Source of the DNA: Herbiconiux aconitum
GTDB lineage: Bacteria; Actinomycetota; Actinomycetes; Actinomycetales; Microbacteriaceae
Direction of reading: 5' to 3'
Length of the DNA stretch: 64,000 nt
Assembly: GCF_024979235.1 (NCBI RefSeq)
Contig: NZ_JANLCM010000001.1
Location: 1,860,001 to 1,924,000, forward strand
The translations under genes and the position numbers were made by a program. This document shows positions 19,335 through 58,341 of the stretch, piece after piece. Below the pieces are notes generated by a model. That model did not search any database. It worked only from the letters and a program-made list of their open reading frames with translations, and was not told the origin of the DNA. How positions within the stretch are numbered: position 1 is the stretch's first letter; every line of letters begins with the position of its first letter.

Positions 19335-21221
19335 ATGTCAGAAACGCCCAGCTCGACGGCTGCGCCCGCTGCCGGAACGGTGGCGGTGCTGTCGCGCCTC
19401 CGCCCCTACGTACAGGCAGCTTTGCCGCGCATTTACGGAGCGATGGCGGTGTCCCTCACCGCGAGCGTGGTGGCCTTGGCCATCCCTCAGGTGCTGCAGT
19501 GGATGGTCGACGGCCCGCTCGCCGATGGAGACGCGAACCAGATCTGGCTCGCCGCCGGCATCGTGCTCGCCCTCGGAGTCATCGAGGCCGTGCTGATCGG
19601 TGCGCGCCGGGCGCTGGTGCTCACGCCCGGAACGCACGTCGAAGCGCGGATGCGCAACTCGCTCTACGCGCAACTGCAAGATCTTCCGGTGTCGTTCCAC
19701 GACCGCTGGCCCAGTGGGCAGTTGCTCTCGCGCGCGGTCAGCGACCTCAACCTCATCCGACGCTGGTTGTCGTTCGGCCTCGTGCTGCTCGTCGTGAACG
19801 TGCTGACCCTGATCGGCGGGGTGATCATCCTGATCAGCCTGAACTGGGTGCTCGGACTCATCTTCGCGGCCGCGGCCGTGCCGGTCATCGCCTACAGCTT
19901 CGCCTTCGAACGCAAATACTCGGATGTCGCGCGCCGCAGCCAAGACCAGGCCGGCGACCTCGCCACCAGCGTCGAGGAGTCGGTGCACGGCATCCGCGTG
20001 CTCAAGGCCTTCGGTCGAAGCCGCTACGCCTTGAAGCGTTTCGAGTCGCAGGCCGAAGAGCTGCGCGGCACCGAGATCGAGAAGGCCAAGGCCATCGCCG
20101 GCATCTGGCTCTACCTCACCCTCATCCCCGACCTCGCGTTCGGCGTGTGTCTCGTCGTGGGCGTGTGGTTGGCGTCGACCGGAGCCTCCTCGGTGGGCGA
20201 GCTCGTGGCGTTCTTCGCCACCGGTACCGTGCTGCTGTTCCCGATCTGGTCGATGGGCTACTTCCTCGCCATGACACTCGACGCGAAGACGGCGACCTTA
20301 CGCTTCTTCGAGGTGATGGATTCGGTCAACGCGATCGAAGACCCGGCCGTTCCCGCCACCGTCGCCGACCCGCGGGGCGAGCTCCGCTTCGAGGAGGTGC
20401 ATTTCCGTTACCAGGATGCGCCGGAGTCGTTCCCCGACCTGATCGACGGCGTGACGCTCACCATCCAGCCCGGCGAGACGATGGCTCTCGTGGGCCTCAC
20501 CGGTTCGGGCAAGTCGACACTCACGGCACTCACCACCCGGCTCTACGACGTCACCGGGGGATCGGTGAAGGTCGACGGTGTCGACGTGCGCGACCTGAGC
20601 CGCGACGAACTGCGCACCCGGATCGCGATGGCGTTCGAGGAAGCGACCCTGTTCAGCCAGACGGTGCGCGAGAACGTGCTGCTCGGCCGGCCGGATGCGT
20701 CAGAAGAGGAGTTGCGCGAGGCCCTCGAGATCGCGCAGGCCACCTTCGTCGACGACCTCCCGCTGGGGCTCGACACGAAGGTGGGCGAGGAGGGCCTCAG
20801 CCTCTCCGGCGGGCAACGGCAGCGCCTCGCGCTCGCCCGCGCGATCGCGGCTCGACCGAGCATCCTGGTGCTCGACGACCCGCTGTCGGCGCTCGACGTC
20901 GATACGGAGGCGTTGGTCGAAGCGGCGCTTCGGCGCGTGCTCGCCACCACCACCGCCTTGATCGTGGCCCATCGCCCCTCGACCGTGGCGCTCGCCGACC
21001 GCGTCGCCCTGCTCGAGAACGGGCGGGTCACCGCGGTCGGCACCCACTCAGAACTGCTGGCCACGAGCCCGCATTACCGATTCGTCATCTCGAGCTTCGA
21101 CGCCGACGAACGCGCCGAGGTGCGGGAGGCCGAGGAGCGGGCCGCGCAGCACGACGCCGAGGTTCACGCCGAGGTGCTCGAGGGCGAAGGCAGCATCACT
21201 ACGAAGGAGGTGGCATCGTGA
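19335..21221 (+). CDS. ABC exporter half (TMD-NBD), degenerate ATP site
   Basis: A 628-residue half-transporter: six-helix exporter domain to about residue 320, then an ATPase domain with Walker [10 protein letters not shown], signature LSGGQRQR and Walker [12 protein letters not shown], where Asp replaces the catalytic Glu. This is the non-catalytic site of heterodimeric exporters such as TM287/288 or BmrCD; the next gene has the complete site. Such pairs extrude drugs or lipophilic metabolites. ATG 19335 follows GAGAG and starts a typical N-terminus; 18 codons open upstream belong to the leader. Its stop overlaps the next start (GTGA). A charged 40-residue tail follows the ATPase domain. 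Confidence 0.9.
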
Positions 21222-23026
21222 CATCCGTTCTCGGAGTCGAGGGTGAGGAGCGCGACGACTTCACGCGAGTCGAGAGCCGCCAGATCCGTCAACGCTCGCT
21301 GCGCCTGCTCGGCTCGCTCGTGCGCCCGATGCGAGCGCGTCTCGCGCTCAGCATCATCGTGGTGGTCATCAGCACCATCTCGCAGGTGGCCGGCCCGTCG
21401 ATCATCGCCTACGGCATCGACACCGGCCTGCCCGCACTGCTCGATCAGGATTGGATGCCGGTGGCACTCGCCGGCGTGGCCTACCTGCTCGCCGGCGTGG
21501 TGGGCGCCGTGCTGATCGCCTGGTTCACCGTGCTCTCGGCGCGCATCAGCCAGGCCATCCTGCTCGACCTGCGCAAGCGCGTCTTCCTGCACACGCAGAA
21601 GCTCAGCCTCGAATTCCACGAGAGCTACACCTCGGGGCGCATCATCTCCCGCCAGACCAGCGATCTCGACGCCATCCGCGAGCTCCTCGACTCGGGCATC
21701 AACCAGCTCGTGCAAGGTGTGCTCTACATGGCGTTCACCGCGGTCGCGCTGTTCCTGCTCGACGTCGAGTCGGGGTTCATCCTGCTCGCAGCACTCGTGC
21801 CACTGTTGATCCTCACCCGCTGGTTCCAGCTGCGGTCGCAACGGATGTTCCGGCGCACGCGTGTCGCCTCCGCGCGGCTGATCGTGCACTTCGTGGAGAC
21901 CATGACGGGCATCCGCGCGGTCAAGGCCTTCCGCAAAGAGAAGCGCAACGAGGTGGAGTTCGGCGGTCTCGTGGAGGACTACCGCGAATCCAACGCGCGC
22001 GTGATCAAGCTCTTCGGCATCTACGACCCCGGTCTGGTGCTGATCGGCAACGTCGCTGTGGCCGTGGTGCTGCTCATCGGCGGCTTCCGAGTGGTCGACG
22101 GCGGAATGGAGATCGGTGTGCTGCTGGCCGCCGTGCTCTACACCCGCCGGTTCTTCGATCCGATGGAAGACATGGCCATGTTCTACAACAGCTACCAGAG
22201 CGCCACCGCTGCTCTCGAGAAGATCTCGGGCGTGCTCGAGGAGACGCCGAGTGTGGCCGATCCGGAGCGGCCGGTCGACCTGTGGGAGTCGACCGGAGCG
22301 GTCACGTTCGACGACGTGGAATTCGGCTACACGGCCGATCGGCCCATCCTGCCCCCCTTCGATCTGGTGATCCCAGCGGGTCAGACGGTCGCGCTGGTCG
22401 GTTCGACGGGCGCCGGCAAATCCACCCTCGCGAAACTCATCTCACGGTTCTATGACCCGACCGCCGGGCGGGTGACGCTCGACGGCATCGATCTGCGCGA
22501 CCTGCATCCGAAAGACCTGCGGCGCGCGATCGTGATGGTGACGCAGGAGGCCTACCTGTTCTCGGGAACGGTGGCCGACAACATCGCCATCGGCAAACCC
22601 GAGGCGAGTCGCGACGAGATCATCGCGGCGGCGCGCGCGGTGGGGGCCGACGACTTCATCCGCGGGCTCCCGAACGGCTACGAGACCGACGTGAACAAAC
22701 GCGGCGGTCGGGTGTCGGCCGGCCAGCGGCAGCTGATTTCGTTCGCGCGGGCGTTCTTGGCGAACCCCACCGTGCTCATCCTCGACGAGGCGACCGCGTC
22801 ACTCGACATTCCGAGCGAGCGGCTCGTTCAGGAGGCGTTGCAGACACTGCTCGCCGACCGTACCGCCGTGATCATCGCCCACCGTCTCTCGACGGTCTCG
22901 ATCGCCGACCGGGTGCTCGTGATGGAGAAGGGGCGCATCGTCGAAGACGGAACGCCCGAGGAACTGATCGGCGGCACCGGCCGGTTCGCGCAGTTGCACG
23001 CCTCCTGGCGCGAGTCGCTCGTCTGA
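21218..23026 (+). CDS. ABC exporter half (TMD-NBD), catalytic partner
   Basis: A 602-residue half-transporter forming the heterodimer with the preceding gene product. The exporter domain spans about residues 40-330; the ATPase domain has Walker [10 protein letters not shown], signature [14 protein letters not shown] and Walker [13 protein letters not shown] with the catalytic Glu intact, and the H-loop AHRLSTV. The GTG start overlaps the previous TGA and has a strong AAGGAGG 7 nt upstream. Substrate is unknown. The gene upstream of the pair encodes the membrane-fused DDAH-like protein, but a separate promoter lies between. Confidence 0.92.
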
Positions 23027-48645: not shown

Positions 48646-48650
48646 GACTC

Positions 48651-48722
48651 GCGTCGCAACTGGCGTATCAGATGGTCACCATCGGGAAGCGACGGACAGG
48701 GATTCGGCCGCGCGCCTGGGTC
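48651..48722 (+). ncRNA. ZTP (pfl) riboswitch upstream of glyA
   Basis: The pfl-motif signature is present: P1 CGTCGC/GCGACG (48652-48657 with 48689-48694), conserved AACTGGCG (48658-48665), P2 GATGG/CCATC (48671-48675 with 48679-48683), CGGGAAGC (48683-48690), and the 3' element CGCGCGCCTGGGT (48709-48721) whose CGCC can pair with GGCG of the first domain to form the pseudoknot. The class binds ZMP/ZTP and turns on folate genes when 10-formyl-THF is short. A downstream ACCATC (48741-48746) repeats the 3' strand of P2 and could serve in the switch. Confidence 0.85.
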
Positions 48723-48774
48723 GATACGGATTCCGAAATCACCATCAGTCCGTCACGCCGAAAAGGAGCCAGTC

Positions 48775-52110: not shown

Positions 52111-52488
52111 TCAGCGAGAGACGGAGACGGCGCGAATGGTCACGACCAGCACGATCAACGCGATCATGAACATCACCCCGATGGCACCGAGCACGATGCC
52201 CGTGATGGCGAGCCCGCGCCCCATGCCCATTCGACGCGCCTTGCTCAGCCCGGCGAACCCGAAGGCCACCGCGAGCACGCTCGGCACGAACAGCACGTTG
52301 AACCCGATCGACACGATGCCGAGCACGAGCGACGCGGTGGCATAGCCGTTTCGACTGTCAGCCGGATCGACGGCGAGCGGCGCGAAGTCGTCTGTCCACC
52401 GGTAGCCGTCCCACCACCGCAGCACATCGGTCGCTTCGGGGTCGGGATACCACCCCGCACCGTTGCGGCCCTGCGGGAGGATGCTCAT
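52111..52488 (-). CDS. DUF2510 and DUF4190 membrane protein
   Basis: A 125-residue protein. Residues 10-40 are a DUF2510 motif (GAGWYPDPEATDVLRWWDGYRWT), a short Trp-rich domain common in actinobacterial membrane proteins. Two helices (about 48-75 and 90-118) form a DUF4190-like part with GIVSIGFNVLFVPSVLAVAFG and GLAITGIVLGAIG. Function unknown. A TACATT box ends 7 nt before the ATG at 52488. Confidence 0.82.
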   Translation of the reverse strand: MSILPQGRNGAGWYPDPEATDVLRWWDGYRWTDDFAPLAVDPADSRNGYATASLVLGIVSIGFNVLFVPSVLAVAFGFAGLSKARRMGMGRGLAITGIVLGAIGVMFMIALIVLVVTIRAVSVSR

Positions 52489-52542: not shown

Positions 52543-53265
52543 TCAGTCGAGACCCCAGAACGGACCGTGCAGCCCCACCTCACGGAAGTAGGCGGCCGCG
52601 GTCTGGGGGTCCCGGCGGGTGTACGGAGTGTCGAGCCGCCCCTCGTACCAGCGCGCCGCGAGCCGCCACAGGGTCTCGAGCGACATCGTGTATCCGGGCT
52701 CGAGCTCCTCGGCGGCGAGCCATTCGTCGACGCAGCCCGTGGAGCAGAAGATGCTCTGGTGCGAGCAGGTGTGCACCACGTCGTCCCAGATGTGGGCCGT
52801 GGGCACCAGGAAGTGGGCGACCTGCGTGCCCGCGGGAGGCGCATCCCGTCCCACCGTCCAGGCGTGTGCGGTGCCGCAGTTCGGGCAGGTGGTGGCCACC
52901 AGCACCTCGGGGGCGCTGGGCACGAGGTGCGGGATGGCGAACGAGTCCCAGGCGCATCCGCCCCACCACAGCGTGTCGGGGCCCATCACCGAGAAGCCGA
53001 GCGGGATCGAGGCGAACGGATGCGCCATCAGGATGCGCCGCTCGGCGTCGAGCACCACGTGCCGCTCGGTCGCGAGCCGGTCGAAGGCGGCGGAAACGAC
53101 GGCCGGTTCGGCCCCGAGCGCGGAGGCCAGCTCGTCGACCGACGAGGCGGCGCCGCTCGACGCGAACCGCGCGTAGATCGCGTGCCGCACCCGCTCGGCG
53201 AACTCGGCGGAGTCGTCCACCTCCGCGGGGCCGGTCGCGGTGCCGTGGCCGCCGGCGGAACTCAT
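52543..53265 (-). CDS. MerB-like organomercurial lyase family protein
   Basis: A 240-residue alkylmercury lyase homologue. An N-terminal winged-helix part (about 20-75) precedes the MerB fold. Cys104-x-x-Asp107 in GGCAWDSFAIPHL and Cys167 in VVHTCSHQSIF align with MerB Cys96, Asp99 and Cys159, and Cys127 with Cys117; extra Cys130, Cys174 and Cys178 are present. MerB protonolyses C-Hg bonds. No merA, merT or merR is near. The ATG overlaps the stop of the upstream ABC exporter gene (ATGA), so it is the fourth gene of a coupled TetR-exporter operon. A role in mercury detoxification is possible but the context suggests another compound. Confidence 0.78.
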   Translation of the reverse strand: MSSAGGHGTATGPAEVDDSAEFAERVRHAIYARFASSGAASSVDELASALGAEPAVVSAAFDRLATERHVVLDAERRILMAHPFASIPLGFSVMGPDTLWWGGCAWDSFAIPHLVPSAPEVLVATTCPNCGTAHAWTVGRDAPPAGTQVAHFLVPTAHIWDDVVHTCSHQSIFCSTGCVDEWLAAEELEPGYTMSLETLWRLAARWYEGRLDTPYTRRDPQTAAAYFREVGLHGPFWGLD

Positions 53266-55265
53266 TCGTCGACCAACGCCTGGGCGAACTGCGAGTTGTA
53301 GAGCGCGAAGTACGCGCCCTCGGCGGCCAGCAACTCGGCGTGCGTGCCCTGCTCCACGATGCTGCCCGACTCCATCACGAGGATGAGGTCGGCGTCGCGG
53401 ATGGTGGAGAGCCGGTGCGCGATCACGAAGCTCGTGCGGTCGGCCCGCAGCGCCGACATCGCCTTCTGCACCAGCTGCTCGGTGCGGGTGTCGACCGACG
53501 AGGTGGCCTCGTCGAGGATGAGCACGCTCGGCTTCGCCAGGAACGCCCGGGCGATGGTGAGCAACTGCTTCTCGCCGGCGGAGACGTTCGACGCCTCGTC
53601 GTCGAGCACCGTGTCGTAACCGTCGGGCAGCGAGTGCACGAAGCGGTCGACGTAGGTGGCGCGGGCGGCGTCGAGAATCTCCTCCTCCGTGGCATCCGGC
53701 CGGCCGTAGGCGATGTTGTCACGGATGGTGCCGCCGAAGAGCCAGGTGTCCTGCAGCACCATGCCGGTGCGCGAGCGCAGGTCGCGCCGGGTCATCTGCG
53801 CGATGTCGACGCCGTCGAGCGTGATGCGCCCGGCATCCAGCTCGTAGAACCGCATGATGAGGTTCACCAGCGTGGTCTTACCGGCGCCCGTTGGGCCGAC
53901 GATCGCCACCGTCTGCCCGGGTTCGGCCACCAGCGACAGGTCGGTGATGAGCGGCTTGTCTTCGGTGTAGCGGAACGACACGTTCTCGAACACCAGACGG
54001 CCGCGCGAGTCGGCGGGGGTCTCGGCGGGCGAGGCATCCGGGGTCTGCTCGTCGGCATCCAGCAGCTCGAAGACGCGCTCAGCCGAGGCCACGCCCGACT
54101 GCAGCAGGTTCACCATCGATCCCAGCTGGGTGAGCGGCTGGGTGAACTGGCGGGAGTACTGGATGAACGCCTGAACCGCACCGATGCTGAGCGCTCCCGA
54201 GGCGACCTGCAGCCCACCCACCACCGCGATCACGACGTAGATCAGGTTTCCGACGAACATCATGGCCGGCATGATGATGCCCGACACGAACTGTGCGCCG
54301 AAGCTGGCCTTGTAGAGCTCCTCGTTCTTCTCGGTGAAGGTCTGCTCGGTCTCGCGCTGGCGGCCGAACACCTTCACCAGGGCGTGGCCGGTGAAGTTCT
54401 CTTCGACCTGGGCGTTCAGCGCTCCCGTGTGCGCCCACTGCGCCACGAACATCTTCTGCGAGCGTTTCGCGATCACTGCGGTGATGCCGACGGTGAGCGG
54501 AATGGTGATCAGTGAGATCAGCGCGAGCAGCGGCGAGGTGACGAACATCATCACGATCACGCCGATGACGGTGAGGATCGACGTGAGCATCTGGGAGAGC
54601 GTCTGCTGCAGGCTCTGCGCCACATTGTCCATGTCGTTCGTGACCCGGCTGAGCAGCTCGCCGCGCTGCATCTTGTCGAAATAGCCGAGCGGCAAGCGGT
54701 TGATCTTCGCCTCGACCTCTTCGCGCAGCCGGTAGACGGTGCTCTGCACGATGGTGTTGAGCACCCGGCCCTGCAACCAGGAGAAGACGGATGCCGCGAC
54801 GTAGAGCACCAGCACGATGCCGAGCACCATGGCGAGGGCGTCGAAGTCGATGCCCTGCCCCGGGGTGAGGGCGATGCCGCTCAGCAGGTCGGCCTGTTGC
54901 CCCTGACCGCCGGCTCGCAGCTGGTCGATCAGCTGCTGCTTCGTCATGTCGGCCGGCAGGGTCTTGCCGATCGCGCCGGCGAAGATGAGGTTCGTCGCCT
55001 GGCCGAGCAGCCACGGGCCGAGCACGGTGAACACCACGCTGACGACGCCGAGCGCGATCACGGCGAGCACCGCGATGCGGTGCGGGCTGAGGCGCCGGAT
55101 GAGACGTTTCGCGGAGGGGCCGAAGGTCATCGACTTCTCGGTCGGCATGCCGACGCCGCCGAACGGGCCGCCGCCGCGTCCGCCCGGGCCCCGGCCCGGC
55201 GAACCCGCCGGCGGGCCGACCGGACGGGGAGCGGACTGCGCCTTGGTCTGGGTGTTGCCGCTCAT
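53262..55265 (-). CDS. ABC exporter half (TMD-NBD), catalytic partner
   Basis: A 667-residue half-transporter with a Pro/Gly-rich N-terminal tail of about 50 residues, a six-helix exporter domain with an enlarged extracellular loop (about residues 100-145), and an ATPase domain with Walker A GPTGAGKTT, signature VSAGEKQLLTIARA and Walker [13 protein letters not shown], catalytic Glu intact. It forms a heterodimer with the product of the upstream gene, whose stop it overlaps. YknV/Rv-type multidrug exporters have this architecture. Substrate unknown. Confidence 0.92.
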   Translation of the reverse strand: MSGNTQTKAQSAPRPVGPPAGSPGRGPGGRGGGPFGGVGMPTEKSMTFGPSAKRLIRRLSPHRIAVLAVIALGVVSVVFTVLGPWLLGQATNLIFAGAIGKTLPADMTKQQLIDQLRAGGQGQQADLLSGIALTPGQGIDFDALAMVLGIVLVLYVAASVFSWLQGRVLNTIVQSTVYRLREEVEAKINRLPLGYFDKMQRGELLSRVTNDMDNVAQSLQQTLSQMLTSILTVIGVIVMMFVTSPLLALISLITIPLTVGITAVIAKRSQKMFVAQWAHTGALNAQVEENFTGHALVKVFGRQRETEQTFTEKNEELYKASFGAQFVSGIIMPAMMFVGNLIYVVIAVVGGLQVASGALSIGAVQAFIQYSRQFTQPLTQLGSMVNLLQSGVASAERVFELLDADEQTPDASPAETPADSRGRLVFENVSFRYTEDKPLITDLSLVAEPGQTVAIVGPTGAGKTTLVNLIMRFYELDAGRITLDGVDIAQMTRRDLRSRTGMVLQDTWLFGGTIRDNIAYGRPDATEEEILDAARATYVDRFVHSLPDGYDTVLDDEASNVSAGEKQLLTIARAFLAKPSVLILDEATSSVDTRTEQLVQKAMSALRADRTSFVIAHRLSTIRDADLILVMESGSIVEQGTHAELLAAEGAYFALYNSQFAQALVDE

Positions 55266-56998
55266 GCTGCCTCCTCCGCGGTGAGCTGCGACGACACGAT
55301 CTCGTTGTAGGTCTCGGATGTCTCGAGCAGTTCTTCATGGGTGCCGCGCCCGACTATGGCGCCGTCCTCCAGCACGATGATCTGGTCGGCGTCGATGATG
55401 GTCGACACCCGCTGCGCCACGATCACCTTCGTGGCGCCTGCGACTCTCGTGCGGAGTGCCTGTCTCAGTCGCGCATCCGTCGCCAAGTCGAGTGCAGAGA
55501 ACGAGTCGTCGAAAACGTAGATCTCCGGCTGCTTCACGAGTGCTCGCGCGATGGCGAGCCGCTGGCGCTGGCCGCCCGACACCGTCGTGCCGCCCTGGGC
55601 GATCGGCGCCTCGAGCTGCCCCTCCAGCGCTGACACGAAGTCTCGCGCCTGAGCGATCTCGAGCGCGCGCCAGAGGTCGTCGTCGGTGGCGTCGGGGTTG
55701 CCGTACCGGAGGTTCGAGGCCACGGTGCCCGAGAAGAGATAGGGCTTCTGCGGCACCAGGCCGATCCGGCTCCACAGCAGATCCGGATCGAGTTCGCGCA
55801 CGTCGACGCCGTCAACCAGCACCGATCCGCCGGTGACGTCGAACAGGCGCGGCAGCAGGTTCACGAGCGTGGTCTTGCCCGATCCGGTACTGCCGATCAC
55901 GGCGAGGGTCTGTCCGGGCTCGACGCTGAAGTCGAGATTACGCAGCACCGGCTGCTCGGCGCCCGGGTAGGTGAAGGAGGCGCCACGCAGCTCGACGGTG
56001 CCGTGCCGCTTCAGCTCGCGCACCGGGTTCGCCGGCAGAACCACCGACGAGTCGGTGGAGAGCACCTCGGTGATGCGGTCGGCGCAGACCGAGGCCCGGG
56101 GGATCATCATCGCCATGAACGTCGCCATCATGATCGCGATCAAGATCTGCACCAGGTAGCTGAGGAAGGCGATCAGGGTGCCCACCTGCATCGAGCCCTC
56201 GTCGATGCGGAACGCGCCGAACCAGATCACGGCGACACTCGAGACGTTCAGGATGAGCAGCACCGTCGGGAACATCAGTGCCAGCAACTTGCCCGCCCGC
56301 AGTGCGGAATCGGTGACATCGCGGTTCGCCTTCGCGAAGCGTGCGGTCTCGACGTCTTCGCGCACGAAGGCGCGCACCACGCGGATGCCCGCGAGCTGTT
56401 CTCGAAGCACCCGGTTGACGGCATCGATCCGGGTCTGCATCTTTCGGAACTGCGGCACCATCCGCACGATGATGGCGCCGAGCGAGATGAGCAGCACCGG
56501 CACCGCGACCGCGATGATCCATGACATCTGCACGTCTTGCTGCAGCGCCAGCACCACACCGCCGATCGCGAGGATCGGAGCCGAGACGAGCAGGGTGAAG
56601 GTCATCAGCGCGAGCATCTGCACCTGCTGCACGTCGTTCGTCGACCGGGTGATGAGCGAGGGGGCGCCGAAGGAGGAGACCTCGCGCTCGCTGAATTCGC
56701 TCACGCGGTGGAAGATCGCGCCGCGCAGGTCGCGGCCGATGGCCATGGCGGTGCGCGCCCCGAAGTAGACCGCGGTGATCGCGGCGGCGACCTGCACGAG
56801 GGTGATGCCGAGCATCCATGCCCCCGTCGTCATGATGTAGGCGGTGTCGCCCTTGGCGACGCCTTCGTCGATGATGTCGGCGTTCAGGGTGGGCAGGTAG
56901 AGCGAGGCGATCGACTGGATGAGCTGGAACAGCACCACGGCGGCGACGAGCTTGCCGTAGGGCTTCATGAAGCGCCCGAGCAGGCGGAGAAGGGTCAT
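55262..56998 (-). CDS. ABC exporter half (TMD-NBD), degenerate ATP site
   Basis: A 578-residue half-transporter starting MTLLRLLGRFMKPYGK; six helices to about residue 300, then Walker A GSTGSGKTT, signature [14 protein letters not shown] and Walker B YVFDDSFSALD, with Asp in place of the catalytic Glu. It is therefore the non-catalytic half of the pair. ATG 56998 overlaps the TetR stop (ATGA); the 210 codons open upstream are antisense-like Arg/Pro sequence lying over the TetR gene. Same half-site logic as the exporter at 19335. Confidence 0.92.
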   Translation of the reverse strand: MTLLRLLGRFMKPYGKLVAAVVLFQLIQSIASLYLPTLNADIIDEGVAKGDTAYIMTTGAWMLGITLVQVAAAITAVYFGARTAMAIGRDLRGAIFHRVSEFSEREVSSFGAPSLITRSTNDVQQVQMLALMTFTLLVSAPILAIGGVVLALQQDVQMSWIIAVAVPVLLISLGAIIVRMVPQFRKMQTRIDAVNRVLREQLAGIRVVRAFVREDVETARFAKANRDVTDSALRAGKLLALMFPTVLLILNVSSVAVIWFGAFRIDEGSMQVGTLIAFLSYLVQILIAIMMATFMAMMIPRASVCADRITEVLSTDSSVVLPANPVRELKRHGTVELRGASFTYPGAEQPVLRNLDFSVEPGQTLAVIGSTGSGKTTLVNLLPRLFDVTGGSVLVDGVDVRELDPDLLWSRIGLVPQKPYLFSGTVASNLRYGNPDATDDDLWRALEIAQARDFVSALEGQLEAPIAQGGTTVSGGQRQRLAIARALVKQPEIYVFDDSFSALDLATDARLRQALRTRVAGATKVIVAQRVSTIIDADQIIVLEDGAIVGRGTHEELLETSETYNEIVSSQLTAEEAA

Positions 56999-57591
56999 GC
57001 GGAGGCTTCTTTCGTGATTCCGTGAACGATGATGCGGGCGAGTTCTTCGCTCGTGAACGGGGTGTCGACCTCGTTGATCTGCGGGATGGCGCTGGAGAAG
57101 GCGATGAGCCGGATGAAGTGCGTGATGCGGCGGGGTGAGAGAGCGAGCCGCTCGGCATCCGGTGCGAACACCTGGGCCATGATCTCGCCCGAGCGGTCCT
57201 CCTCGGGCCTCGGAGGGGGCTCGTGGCGGCCGAGCGCCGCCATCACGCGCATGACGCCCCGGAGGCGTGCGCGGAAGATGTCGATGACCTGCGCGATCTT
57301 CGACTCGAGCGGATCGTCGGGGTCGATGCCGCGGAGGCCGTTGCGCACGTACTCCGGATCGAAGAACTTCTCGGCGGCGGCGCGGATGAGGGAATCCTTG
57401 TCGCCGAAGGCGCGGAACACGGTGCCCTCGGCGATGCCGGCGGCCTCCGCCATCTGCTTCGAGGTGATGTCGGCGCCCTGCTCGACGAGGAGCGGGATGA
57501 CGGCGTCGAGGATCATCGCCCGGCGGTCTTCGAGGGGGAGCGCGGGGGCGCGGCGGGTGCCGTTCTCGGCCAGTTCGTCGGTGCTGCTCAC
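56995..57591 (-). CDS. TetR family repressor of the exporter-merB operon
   Basis: About 198 residues: an N-terminal TetR helix-turn-helix (RRAMILDAVIPLLVEQG, then ITSKQMAEAAGIAEGTVFRAFGDKDSLI) and a helical ligand domain. It is first in the operon with the two exporter halves and the MerB-like gene, overlapping by 4 nt, so it most likely represses them and itself. GTG 57591 is favoured: TAGTGT ends 8 nt upstream and the palindrome at 57610 stays outside the gene. In-frame GTGs at 57603 and 57618 are alternatives. Confidence 0.85.
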   Translation of the reverse strand: MSSTDELAENGTRRAPALPLEDRRAMILDAVIPLLVEQGADITSKQMAEAAGIAEGTVFRAFGDKDSLIRAAAEKFFDPEYVRNGLRGIDPDDPLESKIAQVIDIFRARLRGVMRVMAALGRHEPPPRPEEDRSGEIMAQVFAPDAERLALSPRRITHFIRLIAFSSAIPQINEVDTPFTSEELARIIVHGITKEASA

Positions 57592-57609
57592 GAGCTGAGA
57601 CACTACCTG

Positions 57610-57625
57610 AGTGAGCACTCACTCG
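57610..57625. promoter_or_regulatory. TetR operator before the exporter-merB operon
   Basis: GAGTGA and TCACTC form perfect 6-bp arms around GCAC. This GAGTGA-N4-TCACTC pattern is typical of actinobacterial TetR operators. It sits between the -10 box (57600-57605, TAGTGT on the minus strand) and the expected -35. Confidence 0.7.
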
Positions 57626-57711: not shown

Positions 57712-58341
57712 ATGCCCTACGAACTCAACTCGCCCACGATCGCCACCCACGACGCCCTGCAGAACCTGCTCGGCCAGCCGCTCGAGCGGGTGAAGAACAA
57801 GGCGCGCTCGCGGCTCGACGACGTCGACCGGGTGTGGCTCGCCGGGTCGCCGCTGTGCTTCGTCGCCACCTCCGACGCATCCGGTCGCTGCGACGTGTCG
57901 CCGAAGGGCGATCCGGCGGGCTTGGTCCACGTGCTCGACGACACCACGATCGTGTTGCCCGAGCGGCCAGGCAACCGGAGGGGTGACAGCCTGCACAACG
58001 TGCTCGACAATCCGCACGCCGGGCTGATCTTCCTGATTCCGGGGCGCGGCGACACGCTGCGCATCAACGGGCGGGCGCGCATCGCGGTCGACGAGCCGTT
58101 CTTCGACGACCTGGTTGTGAAGGGCCACCGGCCGCGTCTGGCGCTCGTCGTCGACATCGAAGAGGTCTACTACCACTGCTCGAAAGCGTTTCTGCGGTCG
58201 GCGGCGTGGGCGCCCGAGTCGTGGGACGCATCCGTCGCTCCCTCGCGGGCGAAGATCGCGAAGACGCTCGAGCGGCCCGATGACTCGCTCGAGGTGCTCG
58301 AGGAGTACTACGGGCCGCGCTACGCCGACTCGATCTACTGA
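57712..58341 (+). CDS. MSMEG_1061-type PPOX flavoprotein
   Basis: A 209-residue split-barrel flavin protein of the pyridoxamine 5'-phosphate oxidase-like superfamily. LCFVATSDASGRCDVSPKGDPAGLVHV and VLPERPGNRRGDSLHNVLDNPHAGLIFLIPG are the FMN/F420-binding segments, followed by LRINGRARI and VEEVYYHCSKAFLRS-like sequence, the hallmark of the MSMEG_1061 subgroup. Reaction unknown. AGGAGG lies 5 nt before the ATG. Divergent from the TetR-exporter operon. Confidence 0.85.
   Translation: MPYELNSPTIATHDALQNLLGQPLERVKNKARSRLDDVDRVWLAGSPLCFVATSDASGRCDVSPKGDPAGLVHVLDDTTIVLPERPGNRRGDSLHNVLDNPHAGLIFLIPGRGDTLRINGRARIAVDEPFFDDLVVKGHRPRLALVVDIEEVYYHCSKAFLRSAAWAPESWDASVAPSRAKIAKTLERPDDSLEVLEEYYGPRYADSIY

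Follow-up and report, generated by a model that had tools for sequence, protein, structure and literature searches.

The described systems closest to the locus analysed here are, on the enzyme side, MerB (R831b, PDB entries 1s6l and 3f0o; MerB2, PDB entry 5c17) and SaoL (NCBIfam model NF040728), which belongs to the same superfamily, and, on the transporter side, MsRv1273c/72c, reported in PMC12038006 to pump out isoniazid and to have one degenerate nucleotide-binding site. MerB without the mercury reductase MerA is common (906 of 1795 merB genomes in the accessible part of PMC8261052). MerB-like proteins containing selenocysteine (Sec) are already listed in the available portions of PMC13188914 and PMC9312934, one of them as SaoL; a table in the former names SaoL together with Sao ATP-binding cassette (ABC) transport components, so a link between a MerB-like protein and ABC transport is already in print there. 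With these systems we compared a four-gene unit of Herbiconiux aconitum in which a merB-like gene lies last, behind a TetR gene and two ABC half-transporter genes. The unit lies in a stretch of 64 000 nucleotides (nt) of contig NZ_JANLCM010000001.1 (positions 1,860,001 to 1,924,000), referred to below as the window.

The unit is most readily explained as a composite operon in which a mobile, stand-alone MerB-like gene has come to lie behind a TetR-autoregulated multidrug-type exporter (probability roughly 0.75). The features concerned, in window coordinates, are as follows.

52111-52488, minus strand: DUF2510/DUF4190 gene, the flank of the merB insertion site.
53265-52543, minus strand: merB-like gene, 240 amino acids (aa), Pfam MerB domain (PF03243), C-terminal tail ending in GPFWGL.
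55265-53262, minus strand: ABC2 half-transporter, 667 aa, ABC_membrane and ABC_tran domains, Walker B LDE, signature VSAGEKQ.
56998-55262, minus strand: ABC1 half-transporter, 578 aa, ABC_membrane and ABC_tran domains, Walker B FDD, signature VSGGQRQ.
57618-56995, minus strand: TetR gene with a TetR_N domain, given with the start used in the first-pass annotation; the GTG at 57591 is the likelier start.
57609-57624, no strand assigned: predicted TetR operator GAGTGA-N4-TCACTC, a palindrome in the promoter spacer.

The merB-like gene is rarely found beside this exporter. The genus set comprised 16 genomes, including that of the window. ABC2 orthologues were present in 13 of these, with a piecewise alignment in G255, and merB was present in four; merB adjoined ABC2 at two of the 13 exporter loci, namely in the window's genome and in G251, the nearest relative compared. 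In G251 merB starts 55 nt past the ABC2 stop and has a GAGGA-like site of its own; the 4-nt overlap of the two genes was seen in the window's genome only. Three loci (L129, L130 and L134) have the DUF4190 gene directly after ABC2, which is the merB-free arrangement. G251 also holds a second MerB-like copy elsewhere (L144), 58% identical to that of the window.

The same result was obtained outside the genus set. A scan of public genomes gave 187 confirmed loci, and the 80 best of them were surveyed (79 from Actinomycetota and one labelled Chloroflexota); the simple gene caller missed merB in three of them (L005, L073 and L085). The exporter was found beside merB at one of these 80 loci, in Herbiconiux ginsengi (L002), where the arrangement is that of G251; at L056 an ABC gene with 30% identity lies about 1.1 kb off on the opposite strand. 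Within five genes, the neighbours forming the largest cluster besides merB itself were short-chain dehydrogenases, at 11 loci, in scattered positions and on both strands. Where neighbours recurred, they did so mainly in sets of related genomes (Amycolatopsis with metF and carotenoid-type genes, Agromyces with ilvC), and a Pfam tally of 150 of the 152 listed immediate neighbours gave a maximum of six per family. The survey of MerB neighbours that had been suggested as a check therefore revealed no conserved neighbour, and a conserved partner for the subfamily was ruled out across the 80 loci. In the family Microbacteriaceae, PF03243 occurred in 16 of 249 genomes; the subfamily profile likewise matched 16 of 249, among them a fragment-only match and, in G063, the intermediate L083. 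Because it is rare and lacks fixed neighbours, the merB-like gene is an accessory gene free of fixed context, which would fit an independent function.

The first-pass annotation had proposed a functional pairing in which the lyase cleaves a compound and the exporter removes the product. This coupling is not conserved (two of the 13 genus loci and one of the 80 others); unconserved coupling was half of what that annotation had named as telling against the pairing. What had been put forward as a new resistance layout looks instead like a lineage-specific insertion, and the tempting lyase-exporter system, being unsupported, is off the list. The first-pass description of the unit itself was borne out by the minus-strand ORF coordinates: the order is TetR-ABC-ABC-merB and every junction is an ATGA overlap of 4 nt. 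Translational coupling may be inferred from these overlaps. By eye, a Shine-Dalgarno sequence is clear at the ABC1/ABC2 junction and not at the ABC2/merB junction. In the 80 relative loci, as delimited by a rough gene caller, 109 of 625 pairs of same-strand neighbours allowed an exact 4-nt overlap, so such junctions are common, typical of operons and no special sign.

The exporter and its regulator also occur without merB. Among PDB sequences, both ABC proteins matched 8wcw best (ABC2 against 8wcw_B, 800 bits; ABC1 against 8wcw_A, 705 bits). ABC1 has a Walker B motif without glutamate (FDD), marking a degenerate site, and ABC2 has the catalytic glutamate (LDE) and an altered signature. By these motifs the pair is a heterodimeric exporter with a degenerate site, a known kind, and it is assigned to the Rv1273c/Rv1272c (multidrug) type, for which drug export is predicted. 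It resembles MsRv1273c/72c in nearest sequence match and in having one degenerate nucleotide-binding site; it differs in its adjoining TetR gene, TetR being unmentioned in the main text of PMC12038006 as far as available.

The TetR protein has a TetR_N helix-turn-helix domain (31.6 bits; cut-off 24). The operator proposed ahead of the unit was found as a site, GAGTGA-N4-TCACTC at 57609-57624 being the sole exact copy in the 4.16-Mb genome; binding to it is predicted. Allowing up to one mismatch, the window contained two matches, one of them exact, against 0.13 expected by chance. By eye, the operator lies within the 17-nt spacer of a promoter-like pair on the minus strand (TTGCGA, 57628-57623; TAGTGT, 57605-57600). 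The GTG at 57591 is probably where translation of TetR begins, rather than 57618, because 57618 falls within the operator; the promoter spacing agrees. The tetR gene and the exact operator were present together in the same eight of 12 relatives' exporter loci, seven of the eight being without merB there. As both accompany the exporter with or without merB, the operator belongs to the exporter.

The intergenic region of tetR is shared with a divergent gene for an MSMEG_1061-type PPOX flavoprotein (57712-58341, plus strand). Of the 13 genus loci compared, two showed this gene, the window and G251/L128, and these are also the two with merB there.

In the composite operon the older part would be the TetR-autoregulated heterodimeric ABC exporter of the Rv1273c/Rv1272c type. 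TetR would bind the single operator between the -35 and -10 elements and would be released by an exported toxicant. Insertion of the mobile MerB-like gene between ABC2 and the DUF4190 gene would have happened in the ancestor of the species and its nearest relative compared; the difference between loci would then be a gain of merB rather than a loss. Since merB overlaps the ABC2 stop, it is probably co-transcribed with the exporter in the window's genome.

The MerB-like protein scored 67.6 bits against PF03243 (cut-off 27; residues 96-208). Its residues C104, D107, C127 and C167 aligned to C96, D99, C117 and C159 of MerB, which upholds the numbering of the three catalytic residues (Cys104, Asp107 and Cys167) that the first-pass annotation had called intact. 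The Cys-Asp-Cys trio and the C117 equivalent were present in 80 of 80 subfamily rows. The window protein also matched the MerB fold in structural alignments, with 16-18% identity to the MerB crystal structures. A phmmer search of the PDB with the single sequence gave no match at E 1; profile searches did match. One profile (A1) includes canonical MerB rows and is hence biased to MerB; a second (A3), built from subfamily rows alone, matched MerB2 with a score of 30 bits (E 3e-6), the R831b MerB going unmatched. The protein shares the PF03243 superfamily and the four signature residues with R831b MerB and MerB2; unlike these, it has C130, C174 and C178, cysteines invariant in its subfamily, a WWGG before the catalytic Cys (motif WWGGCAWDSF) and a GPFWGL tail. 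The NCBIfam MerB models NF009710 and NF033555 left it unmatched even at E 10, with canonical MerB controls scoring 276.9/261.9 bits (L082) and 273.1/260.3 bits (L097) in the same scan, and the SaoL model NF040728 (cut-off 140 bits) was likewise unmatched at E 10. Identity as a canonical MerB or as SaoL was ruled out by these models. SaoL differs further in having Sec where the window protein has Cys, and its ABC partners are the Sao permease and binding proteins rather than a multidrug-type exporter. By these comparisons the window protein is a member of the MerB superfamily on a separate, little-studied branch. Several sources label members of this branch organomercurial lyase or alkylmercury lyase (judged from the best 120 of the 3501 proteins matched at E <= 1e-3). 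The curated MerB and SaoL models do not cover this branch, and its members could be counted as methylmercury degraders in environmental surveys.

From its residues the protein is likely to cleave carbon-metal bonds. The enzyme would most likely act alone in the cytosol, with the thiolates of C104 and C167 binding a soft metal or metalloid and D107 protonating the leaving carbon as MerB does; C127, C130, C174 and C178 may form a structural zinc site.

No complete mer operon elsewhere explains the gene, MerA and MerR being ruled out by their cut-offs. In line with the first-pass annotation, neither mercury reductase nor mercury-type MerR was found over cut-off: over the whole genome the best MerA profile match was 328.5 bits (cut-off 454.45) and the best mercury-MerR match 43.7 bits (cut-off 150.85). 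The MerT profile gave zero matches, but control genomes likewise gave none. The window's gene was the only PF03243 gene detected in the genome, which thus resembles the MerB-without-MerA genomes of PMC8261052; the available part of that survey mentions neither an ABC exporter partner nor the window's subfamily. A plain organomercurial lyase working without MerA, with mycothiol or other routes outside mer taking care of its Hg(II) product, would agree with this commonness of MerB alone, with the four signature residues and with the fold match. We regard it as a doubtful yet serious alternative, since both curated MerB models pass the protein by, the WWGGCAWDSF motif, extra cysteines and C-terminal tail set it apart, and its branch separates from the canonical MerB side in the tree described below. 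The suggestion that a MerB fold had been recruited for another substrate fits better than the pairing with the exporter, once service outside a mer operon is added to it (distinct subfamily, intact residues, no MerA or MerR over cut-off).

Related lineages appear, from their reading frames, to carry selenium at the active site. PF03243 occurred in 48 of 396 genomes of the phylum. An in-frame TGA was present in 22 PF03243 matches and TAA or TAG in none. Of the 22, 21 were read (G514:C59 was left out), and all 21 have TGA at the codon of C167 (MerB Cys159; L170, L172, L175, L178, L179 and L183-L198). Three of them (L194, L195 and L197) have a second TGA at the C104 (Cys96) position, where Asp107 is replaced by Glu. 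A GGUC loop is known from bacterial selenocysteine insertion sequence elements, and a GGUC-loop stem can form directly after the TGA in 20 of the 21, L183 differing. In a stem alignment of 19 rows, 94% of the stem cells pair (63% at most in slid controls) and two-sided changes occur at four of the seven stem pairs. Shuffles reached the observed covariation in 2-8 of 500 trials for four of five measures; the fifth, further pair types, was reached in 270 of 500 and shows no excess. These values come from related rows, and the stem was picked after the rows had been viewed. Two further tests of the UGA reading gave weak results. Single-sequence folding z-scores of the hairpins were mostly unremarkable, at -2 to 0.5, with two near -4. 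Over the 12 codons after the last UGA, differences at the three codon positions numbered 752, 677 and 957 in 2280 comparisons, a modest third-position excess.

The hairpin codons encode Arg-Ser at the C174 site of the Cys forms, and C174 is replaced by Arg in 16 of 17 single-Sec and three of three double-Sec rows. The hairpin thus occupies the codons of the third putative zinc ligand, so that RNA signal and metal site appear mutually exclusive. SelA was over its cut-off in 14 of the 16 UGA-type genomes tested (of 21), the two without it being 73% and 68% complete, and in three of eight Cys-form genomes tested; the window's genome had none. All eight Sec relatives tested fell below the MerB and SaoL cut-offs (best SaoL score, 55 of 140 bits).

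A quick tree of 66 rows was read unrooted, with Shimodaira-Hasegawa-like approximate likelihood-ratio test support only; L097 is marked Sec in it through a terminal stop and L198 is marked Cys from one piece. The window subfamily (15 rows) joins three Cys-form intermediates first (L083, L171 and L180; support 97), and the subfamily, intermediates and Sec lineages lie on one side, with canonical MerB and others opposite (support 99). The intermediate L083, from G063, is 38% identical to the window protein, has the WWGGCAWDSF motif and carries His at the fourth putative zinc-ligand position. No description of the present UGA-bearing lineage was found in the available text of the open-licence literature. 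The Sec lineages offer a testable handle on the chemistry of the branch.

Tentatively, and with somewhat less than even odds, we read the window protein as the Cys/zinc form of a broad actinobacterial MerB-like branch that is unlinked to mer operons, that in other lineages has Sec at Cys159 or at both Cys96 and Cys159, in which RNA signal and zinc site exclude one another, and whose target would be a carbon-metal(loid) bond different from those in classical organomercurials. That the protein uses the MerB fold for metal or zinc binding without catalysis, in storage, sensing or DNA binding through an N-terminal winged helix, is improbable: the Cys-Asp-Cys trio is kept throughout the 80 rows, and the UGA at the catalytic position of related lineages argues for a chemically active thiol or selenol across the branch. 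A winged helix in that N-terminal region would not mark the protein as a regulator, because canonical MerB aligns there as well.

Several observations weigh against the composite operon. Six of the 80 surveyed loci had less than 2 kb of upstream sequence, where an exporter could be missed. Family labels on the subfamily tree need 26 changes (minimum 13, shuffled mean 47.9), so that inheritance, as judged from this tree, is partly vertical and partly mixed and not every copy can be called a transfer. The merB-like proteins of the window and of the second species with merB behind the exporter are about 90% identical; as merB has been kept there in two species, co-expression may be selected. Loss of merB from the other genus members is possible. 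Neighbours of the Sec lineages were compared in 17 regions, 15 with UGA genes, and none was conserved besides merB; one three-locus cluster reflected a shared ATPase domain in an ABC-F-like protein (our own label; L217), a short ATPase (L231) and the pair at L225. At this last locus (L225:5564-9964, in G436), one of the 15 Sec loci examined, an ABC exporter pair, divergent and with about 31% identity to ABC2, lies 0.27 kb downstream of a Sec-type MerB-like gene on the same strand. The composite operon is nevertheless preferred to a two-step resistance unit, in which the MerB-like enzyme would cleave an organometal or thiol-bound toxicant, the ABC pair export the product and TetR sense the substrate: the single-strand layout with 4-nt overlaps, the single local operator, the adjacency in two species and L225 speak for such a unit, but it is very unlikely because most relatives have exporter, TetR and operator but no merB at that place, 79 of the 80 surveyed loci (including the six short ones) have no such exporter beside merB, and the second species has 55 nt in place of the overlap.

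A second pair of ABC exporter-type genes lies elsewhere in the window (19530-21086 and 21482-23020, plus strand), the two being 33% and 39% identical to ABC2. A ZMP/ZTP riboswitch was detected at 48646-48728 on the plus strand (51.5 bits; gathering score 39).
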